Assembly: GCA_028281535.1 (NCBI GenBank)
Contig: JANQJS010000034.1
Coordinates: 1-38,101 of the forward strand
Length of the DNA: 38,101 nucleotides
Direction: 5' to 3'
Source: Sedimentisphaerales bacterium
GTDB taxonomy: Bacteria > Planctomycetota > Phycisphaerae > Sedimentisphaerales > SM23-30
Below, piece after piece: positions 30,386 through 33,509 of the stretch (position 1 is its first letter; the number at the start of each line of letters is the position of its first letter). The notes below the pieces were generated by a model that searched no databases, was not told where the DNA came from, and saw nothing but the letters and a program-made list of their open reading frames with translations. The position numbers were made by a program, and so were the translations under genes.

Positions 30386-31213
30386 TTAGTTAAGTTTTTT
30401 CTTACGTATCATCAGGAAAAGACTCCCCAAACCAAGCATGCTTAAGGTTGCAGGTTCAGGCACGACAATCTCAAGAAGTCCTTCTTGATCGAGAAACGTC
30501 TCGATAATTATTTCATCCACAAGAATATTTGAAAACAGAGGAACCTCCTCAAATTCACCCGGTTCAACTTCGACTAATTCATAATCAAAAATCGACTCAA
30601 AGGTAATGGCTTCAAAGTCTGGGCTGGGATCTATGATCATTTCCATGGTTGTCAAATTCCAACCATCGCCTAGATCGATGTGATCCTCAAAAAGGTCAAA
30701 TTCAAACTCAAATAGATCTTCAATGGGATGAGGATGATCATCTTTAATGATATCGACTTCTGCAAAAATTGATTCCAATTCTTCATCGGCAGATTTCCAG
30801 GTCATTTGAACCTGTATAATTTTAGATGAATCAAAATCGCTAAAATTATTTAAATCATAGGAAAATGCCCCGTTGAACTCCATGATGCCATCGCGACCAC
30901 TTGCGTCTACGGTATCAAAATGATAAGCATCCTCAGCAAACAGCTGCGAAGCGAAGTCGGTAGGATCTTCCGGATCCAACTCCCCTTCAGCATATTTGAA
31001 CTCTGGAATCTCCAAACCTGTCCCCCAAACAAAGCTAGAATAATCGGGAACATCTAAACGAGGAAAAATATCATCATCAGGTGCATCGTCGTCATAGGAC
31101 CAGACAGAGAATGTGCTTCCAGGAAGCGAACGCCAGGAAGGAATGTTAATATCATCTGCCAGGGTAGGAAGAGACAGACACAATACAATCATTGCCACTA
31201 TGCAGTGTTTCAT
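30386..31213 (-). CDS. PEP-CTERM sorting-domain protein 1
   Basis: 275 residues from the ATG at 31213, chosen for GGAGG six bases upstream and for the signal peptide MKHCIVAMIVLCLSLPTLA. The acidic mature part opens with WRSLPGSTFSVWSYD and DIFPRLDVPDYSSFVWG. The C-terminus is a PEP-CTERM tripartite tail: VPEPATLSMLG, a hydrophobic helix, and a basic end (RKKKLN). Such tails direct cleavage and surface delivery by an exosortase, which is not encoded in this window. It is paralogous to the gene at 31672-32544. A 225-base leader precedes it, starting with the repeated RNA-like element at 31374-31437. Confidence 0.9.
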   Translation of the reverse strand: MKHCIVAMIVLCLSLPTLADDINIPSWRSLPGSTFSVWSYDDDAPDDDIFPRLDVPDYSSFVWGTGLEIPEFKYAEGELDPEDPTDFASQLFAEDAYHFDTVDASGRDGIMEFNGAFSYDLNNFSDFDSSKIIQVQMTWKSADEELESIFAEVDIIKDDHPHPIEDLFEFEFDLFEDHIDLGDGWNLTTMEMIIDPSPDFEAITFESIFDYELVEVEPGEFEEVPLFSNILVDEIIIETFLDQEGLLEIVVPEPATLSMLGLGSLFLMIRKKKLN

Positions 31214-31373
31214 CAGAACCTCCAAATTTTCATTGTTGCGAATCAAGGTGTCTTTTCATTTGTAGGAATGAAAAAACGCAAGTCTAGTAAGTTTAGTTAT
31301 GTAAGTTTTGTGCGAGTATAATTAACTTGTGGCAATAAGTTATACTCAACATTTGGAAGATGTATTGTGATTT

Positions 31374-31437
31374 GCTTAAACTGTCTTTCAGGGCGGTTTA
31401 AGCTGTCACTTAGAACAGCCTCCACCTCTCTCTACCC
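31374..31437 (-). ncRNA. Candidate structured leader element, copy A
   Basis: On the minus strand the element reads GGGTAGAGAGAGG, then a hairpin (AGGCTGT/ACAGCTT with one G-T pair), then ACCGCCCTGAAAG. A second foldable stem (GCTTAAAC/GTTTAAGC, 8 bp perfect) encloses the CGCCCTGAAAGACA loop and competes with the first. GGG/CCC and GGT/ACC can close the whole. It begins about two bases from the start site predicted by the promoter at 31446-31473 and heads the leader of PEP-CTERM gene 1. Confidence 0.45.
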
Positions 31438-31445
31438 TATATATT

Positions 31446-31473
31446 ATTATAGGTATTATCCGATTAAATGCAA
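31446..31473 (-). promoter_or_regulatory. Predicted promoter of PEP-CTERM gene 1
   Basis: TTGCAT (31468-31473) and TATAAT (31446-31451) are 16 bases apart on the minus strand. Transcription would start near 31439, at the leading edge of leader element A. Confidence 0.55.
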
Positions 31474-31598
31474 GCTTTAATCAACCTGTAACAACTTTTT
31501 CATTCTGGGCATATCTACTTTAAAATAAGCATCTTATAGAATTTCAGGTCAAAAACCGACCGACGTAAAGCATTATTTTACAATTTCAGACATAAAAA

Positions 31599-31632
31599 AA
31601 ACCTCTCTGCGATGTGCTTAGCAGAGAGGTTT
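31599..31632 (-). terminator. Strong terminator after PEP-CTERM gene 2
   Basis: AAACCTCTCTGC pairs perfectly with GCAGAGAGGTTT around 10 bases, followed by a T-run on the minus strand. Confidence 0.9.
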
Positions 31633-31671
31633 AGGAGCGAAATATATTAACCTATTATATATTTTTATTTT

Positions 31672-32544
31672 TTAGTTTTCCTGACGTCTTTTACGTCTTG
31701 CCAGAAGAAGACTTCCCAGCCCAAGAACAGATATGGTTGCTGGCTCTGGGATACTGATCGTGTCGATAACCACTTCGTCGACAGCGATTGAAGCAATATT
31801 GTTTGTGCCGCCATTTTGCCCCGTTGAAGCAGGATTCTTTGAGATCAAGGTAATGTATTCATAATCAGGATTTGGTTCGACTTCAAATTCAAAGACTGAG
31901 TGATACCAGCCATCACCCAGATCGGTATAGTTTTCAAATGGATCTTCATTAAAGACAACGAAATCGTCACCGGTAGGATCGAAGGTTTCAATTTCAAACT
32001 TAAATTTACTGGCGGTGATATCTTCAGTATCATCTTCTTTCCAGACAATTTGTAATTTGATCTTCTTTAGTGGCTCTTCATCAATAAAGTTATTGATATC
32101 CCATGACAATTCAGCAACATCACGCAATACGCCTTCACGCCCCATCCACATGTTATTTGTGCCATAACCAGAATCGGTTGTATGCATCGCACCATGGCCA
32201 TACCATTCGCTCAATGCATATTGCTGCCAGCTGAATTGATTCGTAAAATCCAGACCAGGATAATCGCCAGCCCAATCATTTAAGTATTCCTGTTGCAAAG
32301 TTGCAGGATTACCGAAATTTGGGTGCGGAACATACGAAGAAAATTCAGGTGCATCTAATCTTGGGAACGGTCCGTCAACCGCAGGAACGGGAGCTTGGGC
32401 ATCGTAGGTCCAATGTGAATAAGTACTTCCAGGAAGTCCACGATATGAAGCAGGACTGGTATCGCCATCACCAGAAGGTGCAGCAATTGCAACGGAAGAT
32501 AATATTACAGATAAGACCGTTGTTAAGATTAGGGACAATTTCAT
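31672..32544 (-). CDS. PEP-CTERM sorting-domain protein 2
   Basis: 290 residues. AAAAGGAGCGAAGAA precedes the ATG and a signal peptide follows (LILTTVLSVILSSVAIAAPS). The mature part begins YRGLPGSTYSHWTYD and FPRLDAPEFSSYV, as in PEP-CTERM protein 1. A central domain rich in acidic and aromatic residues follows (ELSWDINNF, DLGDGWYHSVFEFEVEPNPDYE). The tail IPEPATISVLGLGSLLLARR plus KRRQEN is a textbook PEP-CTERM signal. It is likely an exosortase-processed surface or matrix protein; no enzymatic motif is visible. Its leader of about 275 bases begins with the repeated element at 32764-32820. Confidence 0.92.
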   Translation of the reverse strand: MKLSLILTTVLSVILSSVAIAAPSGDGDTSPASYRGLPGSTYSHWTYDAQAPVPAVDGPFPRLDAPEFSSYVPHPNFGNPATLQQEYLNDWAGDYPGLDFTNQFSWQQYALSEWYGHGAMHTTDSGYGTNNMWMGREGVLRDVAELSWDINNFIDEEPLKKIKLQIVWKEDDTEDITASKFKFEIETFDPTGDDFVVFNEDPFENYTDLGDGWYHSVFEFEVEPNPDYEYITLISKNPASTGQNGGTNNIASIAVDEVVIDTISIPEPATISVLGLGSLLLARRKRRQEN

Positions 32545-32763
32545 TTCTTCGCTCCTTTTAGTTTTAGATTTTCATCTAAACTCGATTAATTGATTTCATA
32601 AAAATAAAAATATATAAGTTAATAGGTTAATCTCTATATTTACTTTACATTTGTCATGTATTACATCTGCCGAACTCTACTGACTTTATCATGGTCATAT
32701 TTTTTCTCTGGACTCTAAGAACGTTATTTCTTTACTAACTTGGAAGAGCGGAACTTTTCTAGC

Positions 32764-32820
32764 TTTCATTCGGTTCGCAGCTTTAAAAAAGCTATTTGCG
32801 CGCTTCCCAATCTCTCTACC
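32764..32820 (-). ncRNA. Candidate structured leader element, copy C
   Basis: On the minus strand GGTAGAGAGATTGGG is followed by a hairpin (AGCTTT-N3-AAAGCT, extended by CGC/GCG across an AAAT bulge) and then by AACCGAATGAAAG. The order GGTAGAGAGA - hairpin - ACCG - TGAAA matches copies A and B. A weak TTCGTC-N16-AGAATA promoter would start transcription at about this point. It precedes PEP-CTERM gene 2 by about 220 bases. Confidence 0.4.
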
Positions 32821-33325
32821 GAAAAACGCTATTCTGCAGTCATGCCTCGAAGACGAATAATATCATCTTCTTTTGGCACTTCAGGCAATACTCATCAAGA
32901 AAGCAACTCATAGAAGAAATGAAAAAGGCGATCGTTTTCTCCTGCCGCCTGCATCTACTTATCTCATACCATTTTTTGAGTCTTGCTTAAACTCAAATCA
33001 CACTTGCCCACTTAACTTACTATCAAAAGTTATCTAGAGGAAAATTACATAGATTATAAATAAACCTAATTAAATCTTACTCTCGATTTTACTTTCAGCT
33101 GAGCCAAGCACGAACAACAGTAGAAAGTAGATAGCAATTTTCACTTATTGCTACACAAAACATCATGGCAGATCCAAACAGTTTTAAATCTACCAATAAA
33201 ACATTTTCCTTATTAAAAACTTATTTTCAGCTAAAACGCCTAACACCACACGTGATAAACATTCATTTAAATAGCTAAAAACAAAGATTTTACATATGTA
33301 TGGGATAATGACATGAGAAATGCAC
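32821..33325. other. Gene-free stretch between leader copies B and C
   Basis: About 500 bases without a convincing gene. Short reading frames here have no ribosome binding site, signal peptide or recognisable sequence. A hairpin TAGCAAT/ATTGCTA and a weaker TTGAGT/ACTCAA stem are present, but neither has a T-run on the minus strand. It may be a remnant of a lost PEP-CTERM paralogue or the body of a non-coding transcript. Confidence 0.35.
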
Positions 33326-33388
33326 AACCTTTTCAGGGTCGGTAACAAGCAAAACTCGCTTATCCGTACCCTCTCTCTACCCAAGGTT
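33326..33388 (-). ncRNA. Candidate structured element, copy B, with no downstream gene
   Basis: On the minus strand AACCTT pairs with AAGGTT at the two ends. Inside lie GGGTAGAGAGAGGG, a hairpin (AAGC-N7-GCTT), TACCGACCC and TGAAA. GGG/CCC and GGTA/TACC can also pair, giving a two-stem fold with an AGAGAGA bulge. A near-consensus promoter lies at 33398-33425. No gene starts for nearly 800 bases downstream, so this copy may be a free-standing RNA. Confidence 0.45.
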
Positions 33389-33397
33389 ACAGCGTAA

Positions 33398-33425
33398 ATT
33401 ATAGGTAAACCCAGTTATTTGTCAA
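33398..33425 (-). promoter_or_regulatory. Near-consensus sigma70 promoter upstream of element B
   Basis: TTGACA (33420-33425) and TATAAT (33398-33403) are 16 bases apart on the minus strand. The predicted start lies within a few bases of the AACCTT arm of element B. Confidence 0.6.
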
Positions 33426-33509
33426 TGGTCAATTAACAACTTTTCCGCCCTTTTTTTTCCAAAATCTGAAGATCTAGCATAATGAATATTTATTGCTGAG
33501 TAAGCGCAT

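Follow-up and report, generated by a model that had tools for sequence, protein, structure and literature searches.

A GA run in the leaders of PEP-CTERM genes of a Sedimentisphaerales bacterium supports an RNA-level regulon

The upstream signal described for PEP-CTERM genes is a DNA enhancer/sigma-54 box with PrsK/PrsR, found in Proteobacteria only (Haft et al. 2006, PMC1569441), and experiments on sigma-54 control have been published for the RpoN-dependent gene pepA (PMC9850573). The same authors stated that genes lacking this box must be served by additional motifs and regulatory proteins (PMC1569441), and the regulation of PEP-CTERM/exosortase cargo beyond Proteobacteria has been a standing question since 2006. 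At the RNA level, the HMP-PP (thiS) riboswitch demonstrates that an aptamer embedded in a terminator can control this terminator (PMC6478431).

For the signal described here, the TRAP/HutP and Csr systems may, by analogy, be regarded as the nearest mechanistic models. TRAP and HutP of Bacillus exert RNA-binding attenuation and antitermination at NAG/GAG repeats, and TRAP, which requires approximately 11 triplets at a spacing of 2–3 nt, also acts on Shine-Dalgarno regions. In the Csr system, the protein CsrA recognizes the motif A(N)GGA in hairpins, with CsrB and CsrC serving as decoy RNAs. Small RNAs with the motif CCUCCUCC are known from the CcsR/cuckoo family of Alphaproteobacteria.

We analyzed a stretch of 38,101 nt (the window), which represents contig C8 of a 4.44 Mb genome with 67 contigs (G000). 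A preliminary description had proposed three minus-strand elements of common order next to PEP-CTERM genes, here named 31.4, 32.8, and 33.4 kb copies by their positions (Table 1). All three copies are real, and two of them are clearly related. The ten-mer GGTAGAGAGA occurs on the minus strand at 31427–31436, 32811–32820, and 33372–33381, and the distances from GGTAG to ACCG were given correctly as 39, 38, and 46 together with the hairpins, but in the order of the 31.4, 33.4, and 32.8 kb copies instead of coordinate order. The cluster of bare GGTAGAGAGA copies constitutes weak evidence, since 61 of 100 dinucleotide shuffles of the window contained one or another ten-mer in triplicate within 2.1 kb (9 of 100 with GC ≥ 4). 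Across the genome, 11 copies of GGTAGAGAGA were found, and the ACCG..TGAAA tail is present at the three copies of the window only.

The 31.4 and 33.4 kb copies have GGGTAGAGAGAGG and CCCTGAAA in common in the same 53-nt register. Furthermore, both are preceded by AAAAGTTGTTA exactly 62 nt 5' of GGGTAG, with TACCTATAAT in between, and the score of their local alignment was equalled in only 5 of 300 shuffles. Judged by their sequences, these two copies are certainly related to each other and have related predicted promoters. As the proteins encoded by genes 1 and 2 are merely 33% identical, the common leader sequence suggests selection. Both copies also fold more stably than shuffled sequences (z-values of −2.7 and −2.9). 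For the 32.8 kb copy, common features are limited to GGTAGAGAGA, ACCG, and TGAAA; its fold is no better than that of shuffles (z = −0.58), and it reached 11 bits (E = 1.1) when scored with a model built from the 31.4 and 33.4 kb copies. Taken alone, the 32.8 kb copy is therefore marginal and weak in every test. For the transcript predicted at the 33.4 kb copy, folding of the initial 232 nt (33160–33391, minus strand) yielded a z-value of −4.2, which was reached by none of 200 shuffles. The 33.4 kb copy is possibly a long leader of gene 2 or, alternatively, a stand-alone structured RNA.

Table 1. Features of the three leader copies and the adjacent PEP-CTERM genes in the window.
Feature	Position	Strand	Remarks
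Leader element, 31.4 kb copy (AGGGTAGAGAGAGG...CCGCCCTGAAA)	31386..31438	-	Hairpin, AGAGAGAG run in internal loop
AGAGAGAG run, core conserved genome-wide	31426..31433	-	
TACCTATAAT, predicted -10 region in common with 33.4 kb copy	31446..31455	-	-35 TTGCAT (3/6) 16 nt upstream
AAAAGTTGTTA upstream box, 31.4 kb copy	31489..31499	-	62 nt 5' of GGGTAG
PEP-CTERM protein gene 1 (ATG at ~31213 as likely start)	30386..31246	-	Downstream of 31.4 kb copy
Leader element, 32.8 kb copy (TCGGTAGAGAGATTGG...ACCGAATGAAA)	32764..32822	-	Weak alone
AGAGAGA run	32811..32817	-	~273 nt 5' of gene 2 start
PEP-CTERM protein gene 2, 33% identity to gene 1	31672..32544	-	
Leader element, 33.4 kb copy (TGGGTAGAGAGAGGGTACGG...CCGACCCTGAAA)	33331..33383	-	
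AGAGAGAG run, 33.4 kb copy	33371..33378	-	
Perfect sigma-70 consensus TTGACA-16-TATAAT (12/12), predicted promoter of 33.4 kb copy	33398..33425	-	
AAAAGTTGTTA upstream box, 33.4 kb copy	33434..33444	-	

A lack of further copies had been named in advance as grounds for refutation, and this outcome was obtained for the exact framework. The exact two-block pattern had no match in 257 Gb, and the two-copy model (R1) matched the 31.4 and 33.4 kb copies alone in the own genome and no convincing relative in 397 genomes of the class. Taken together, exact two-block patterns and R1 retrieved no relatives from 98 and 397 genomes, 257 Gb, and plasmids, and comparison of a 900-nt region with relatives revealed no DNA conservation. 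Two weak and unrelated R1 matches were discarded, one being antisense within an ORF (L046) and the other a purine-rich intergenic stretch (L047), neither of them 5' of a PEP-CTERM gene. Likewise, 19 matches to viral contigs were judged as chance from the pattern length alone. Covariance models of Rfam 15 gave no match to the window and no relevant match at 20 PEP-CTERM leader loci at gathering score. Nothing points to a metabolite aptamer, and the initial view that the element is not a known riboswitch is upheld. A leader peptide was rejected because the frame of ACCG relative to CCTGAAA differs between the 31.4 and 33.4 kb copies.

The part that recurs throughout the genome is the AGAGAGA run and not the GGTAGAG/ACCG/TGAAA frame, which had been considered the conserved core. 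The genome contains about 50 PEP-CTERM genes, and a search for TAGAGAGAG returned 21 places, 13 of which lie in sense orientation just 5' of a PEP-CTERM gene. To quantify this, we used a sample of nine contigs (1.61 Mb, 1248 ORFs; ORFs and start codons were assigned by a simple script) and scored (GA)n runs of at least 7 nt within 300 nt upstream. Sense runs precede 22 of 34 PEP-CTERM genes and 7 of 754 other genes (Fisher p = 2e-28), and antisense runs were counted at 2 of 34 and 12 of 754, respectively. With no motif assumed, GAGAGAG was the top enriched 7-mer (21/34 PEP-CTERM vs. 4/754 other genes). In the wider set of 52 PEP-CTERM genes with an assigned start and a limit of 500 nt, 29 leaders carry a sense run and five an antisense run. 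The proposal of a foldable leader-RNA element tied to PEP-CTERM genes was right; unlike the exact framework, the GA-run core is found throughout the PEP-CTERM leaders of the own genome. The window's three copies are three instances of this regulon-wide signal, with the AGAGAGA run as its core. A third close PEP-CTERM paralogue (C37) lacks a run of 7.

The runs are 7–12 nt long and consist of contiguous (GA)3–6. This is too short for phase variation by long repeats, a reading that we rejected also because the runs are embedded in stems. Of the 29 run-bearing leaders, 14 have a U-tract no more than 62 nt 3' of the run, nine have the run at most 20 nt from the start codon, and in the other six it is positioned differently. 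Several runs sit in hairpin loops, and two leaders hold four and five runs. Predicted sigma-70 promoters (at least 10/12) are in excess 5' of the runs (11 observed vs. 1.2 expected), and the runs are therefore very probably transcribed. The signal resembles the PEP-CTERM sigma-54 box in that numerous PEP-CTERM genes scattered over a single genome have it in common in their long upstream regions; however, it combines sigma-70-like predicted promoters with an RNA run that is specific to one strand, and the strict sigma-54 −24/−12 motif was detected in only 1 of 52 leaders (in the sample, 0/34 PEP-CTERM vs. 6/754 other genes). We also considered that (GA)n might be an operator bound by a transcription factor at the DNA level. 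Enrichment alone would look the same for DNA and RNA, and the 31.4 and 33.4 kb copies do have the upstream box AAAAGTTGTTA in common. Nevertheless, the strong strand bias (22 sense vs. 2 antisense), the location of the runs 3' of predicted promoters, and the covarying terminator stems surrounding the run (see below) make a DNA operator highly improbable.

In 13 leaders, the region folds as an intrinsic terminator with AGAGAGA in the 5' arm (z-values from −3.9 to −9.9), for example ACCCAGCUAGAGAGAGAUUGUGGCUC..UCUAGCUGGGUUUUUUU; a fourteenth candidate (C23:182682) showed no such fold. These 13 leaders have the predicted layout of an attenuator, i.e., promoter, terminator hairpin with U-tract, and gene on the same strand, which does not apply to the window copies. 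Among 213 terminator-like hairpins in the 1.61 Mb, 11 contain the run, and each of these 11 precedes a same-strand PEP-CTERM gene, compared to 8 of the 202 other hairpins. In an alignment of seven terminators the run is invariant, and the outer stem varies while pairing is retained (89% of cells paired). Two pairs are changed on both sides, the covariation of 0.218 (0.104 in shuffles) was reached by 2 of 500 shuffled alignments, and pairing drops to one half when the partner is shifted by a single column. Not all copies are independent, since some terminator leaders (C2, C3, C45, and C53) probably arose from each other by recent duplication. As a further feature, leaders such as those at C2:41445, C3:4785, C45:224460, and C60:81309 have a small hairpin AGGAACGGGA...UCCCC in common 5' of their terminators; it lies near the predicted transcript start and is also present in PEP-CTERM leaders of C36 without a GA run.

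The GA terminators might also close independent small RNAs that precede PEP-CTERM genes by coincidence, without attenuating these genes. A small RNA linked to mnmE has exactly such a 3' end (see below), but the placement of all 11 sampled GA terminators before same-strand PEP-CTERM genes, most at 12–175 nt from the ORF and mostly after a predicted promoter, as well as Shine-Dalgarno-proximal and hairpin-loop runs at genes without terminators, render this very improbable. Another explanation requires the ribosome as the sole trans player: the run would be a cis-acting enhancer of translation or stability for highly expressed surface proteins, i.e., a standby or Shine-Dalgarno-like polypurine comparable to 5' mRNA stabilizers. 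The nine leaders with a run close to the start codon and polypurine runs close to predicted 5' ends are in line with such a role. However, it leaves unexplained why runs are placed in terminators (both the 14 leaders with a U-tract and the 11 of 11 above) and why the terminator of the small RNA carries one, and the conserved letters are GAGAGAG instead of GGAGG. We thus regard the enhancer as improbable.

Comparison with known RNA-based systems revealed partial likeness. As in the HMP-PP (thiS) riboswitch, a conserved element lies within the intrinsic terminator stem of a leader; in contrast, there is no Rfam match here, and the element is a plain GA run common to unlinked structural genes that occurs also near start codons. 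The conserved part of the terminator members comprises the run and one variable stem and not the multiple helices of an aptamer. With TRAP/HutP, the signal would have in common that one factor acts on leader terminators and, as for TRAP, on Shine-Dalgarno regions; unlike TRAP sites, the runs contain 3–5 overlapping and contiguous GAG instead of spaced (G/U)AG triplets. In contrast to the CsrA regulon with its GGA core in hairpin loops, the terminator members have AGAGAGAGA as their invariant core, and most of them read UAGAGAG without GGA.

Conservation was assessed by searching 161 genomes of the order and 13 of the family with a covariance model of the seven terminators (R2). GA-run leader terminators were identified in five other genera of the family (G001, G005, G007, G009, and G011), so that the leader-terminator architecture is conserved in six genera including the own. 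Six of these terminators precede genes ending in PEP-CTERM (G001 C229, G005 C12 and C40, G007 C217a and C219, and G011 C167); most of the remaining ones precede signal-peptide genes that run off the contig or end otherwise. When PEP-CTERM leaders of relatives were chosen by protein similarity, only 1 of 20 contained the run, and use of the signal is therefore partial outside the own genome. In three leaders of G011 (L287, L248, and L270), good Shine-Dalgarno/start signals, (G)GAGGAAAAUG, are located directly 5' of the GA terminators, with short or in-frame leader ORFs entering the terminator; these signals are complementary to the small RNA seed described below. R2 matches in the families f2 and f7 were dismissed as a different dispersed inverted repeat and not a GA terminator. 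This near-perfect repeat, TTTACCCCGTTAGA...TCTAACGGGGTTTA (L241, L243, L244, L245, L247, L249, and L250), occurs within the order of the own genome, has certain copies within ORFs, and is MITE-like in appearance.

R2 also matched a second, highly conserved locus with the structure ACATTTTCCTCCTCCTTTGGGCGAGAGAGAGAG - loop - CTTTCTCTCGCTTTTTTT. It represents a candidate small RNA, composed of an invariant unpaired ACAUUUUCCUCCUCC and a GAGAGAG terminator hairpin. In the own genome, it is located at C45:43693-43766 (L298; also L181) downstream of a promoter-like sequence and between two genes that we take to be mnmE and queF from their protein sequences. Further copies exist in G001 (two), G002, G004, G005 (three, two in tandem), G006, G009, and G011, all of which belong, like G001–G012 in general, to the same family (further loci: L280, L288, L290, L265, L266, L268, L299, L312, and L313). 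The candidate small RNA is thus present in eight genera of the own family only; it lies directly 3' of mnmE in several genomes, and the majority of genomes have one copy, linked to mnmE. A search of 397 genomes yielded no convincing match beyond the family, with G120 containing a distant look-alike, and Rfam had no match to the small RNA loci. The model used here (R3) is mainly a sequence model, as its base pairs are about 3 columns off, and its strong matches (E < 1e-11) rest on the invariant blocks.

With its unpaired CCUCCUCC stretch mimicking an anti-Shine-Dalgarno sequence, the small RNA resembles the CcsR/cuckoo family. It differs by lineage, by its mnmE-linked and mostly single-copy locus, and by the GAGAGAG terminator. 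Pairing of the CCUCCUCC seed with start regions was stronger for PEP-CTERM genes than for the remaining genes with a signal peptide (median −12.6 vs. −8.8 kcal/mol, p = 1e-6). Part of this excess is due to Shine-Dalgarno strength; after accounting for anti-Shine-Dalgarno strength, a residual p-value of 7e-5 was retained. Of 150 shuffled seeds, 4 performed equally well. With the region 5' of the leader terminators, the seed pairs strongly in three leaders of G011, whereas p ≤ 0.05 was reached for 1 of 28 in the own genome; such pairing is thus not general.

These data bear on the possibility that no trans factor other than the small RNA is involved and that it acts by base pairing alone, via its CCUCCUCC seed on Shine-Dalgarno sequences and start codons and/or via a CU-rich 3' arm that exchanges with the GA arm of the leader terminators. 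The enriched complementarity at PEP-CTERM start regions, perfect GGAGGAAAAUG matches just 5' of the terminators in G011 leaders, and the GAGAGAG/CUUUCUCUC hairpin common to small RNA and leaders would fit this. On the other hand, the seed is not complementary to the GA run, the 3' arm is held in a very stable hairpin, pairing 5' of terminators is no general feature, and some shuffled seeds produce the same enrichment; we consider control by the small RNA alone unlikely. A CU-rich hairpin at C9:194264 (L122) was initially a candidate for an antisense partner and was dropped in favor of the conserved small RNA. It has a 9-bp stem and belongs to the 3' UTR of a gene for a response regulator of the LuxR type, and its loop sequence CUCUCUCUAGC is complementary to GCUAGAGAGAG of the leaders.

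An RNA-level regulon of PEP-CTERM genes marked by the GA run is strongly supported. The strand bias, the position 3' of predicted promoters, the covarying terminators, the proximity to start codons, and the presence in the small RNA jointly suggest that the run is a recognition site at the RNA level. As the simplest single mechanism for such a site, we propose a putative trans-acting RNA-binding factor that controls read-through or translation of PEP-CTERM mRNAs, and on balance we lean towards this reading. From sigma-70 promoters, a (GA)n run of 7–12 nt capable of being single-stranded would be transcribed into the gene leader and bound by the factor, most likely a protein. Where the run forms the 5' arm of a terminator, the bound factor would block terminator formation and transcription would continue; where it overlaps or adjoins the Shine-Dalgarno sequence, binding would alter translation; and where a hairpin loop presents it, which is the case in the window, it may serve as a docking site. 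The small RNA with the same GAGAGAG hairpin could be a decoy for the factor and/or pair with PEP-CTERM start regions. The factor, the direction of control, the signal, and the role of the small RNA are what we infer from this arrangement. Some findings count against a regulon controlled by a factor: 23 of the 52 PEP-CTERM genes have no run, none of the window copies is a terminator, and the 33.4 kb copy is followed by about 500 nt without an ORF and then by the 32.8 kb copy.

A more specific version, which we put forward tentatively and hold to be doubtful, is that one GAGAGAG-binding factor co-regulates this class of surface proteins as both antiterminator and translational regulator, with the small RNA as its decoy, in a Csr-like system of independent origin that is specific to the family. 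As in Csr, mRNAs and a small RNA have a common motif in hairpins, with protein binding presumed in our case; unlike in Csr, this motif reads GAGAGAG, is in most cases preceded by U or A, and lacks a GGA core, and the small RNA offers a single site.

In a literature search that took in few subscription papers, no report of the GA-run signal or of the small RNA was found, which points to a previously undescribed RNA-level PEP-CTERM regulon. With a motif, approximately 30 target genes in one genome, a leader architecture, and a conserved small RNA at hand, the question of PEP-CTERM regulation beyond Proteobacteria becomes directly testable, and the regulon provides an example of genes united by an RNA run embedded in terminators. 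Regarding RNA-binding proteins, the own genome encodes a glycine-rich RRM protein (PF00076, E = 1.8e-24) on the reverse strand of C23 near position 1555 (G000:C23 ~1555), which is a possible candidate for the RNA-binding factor.
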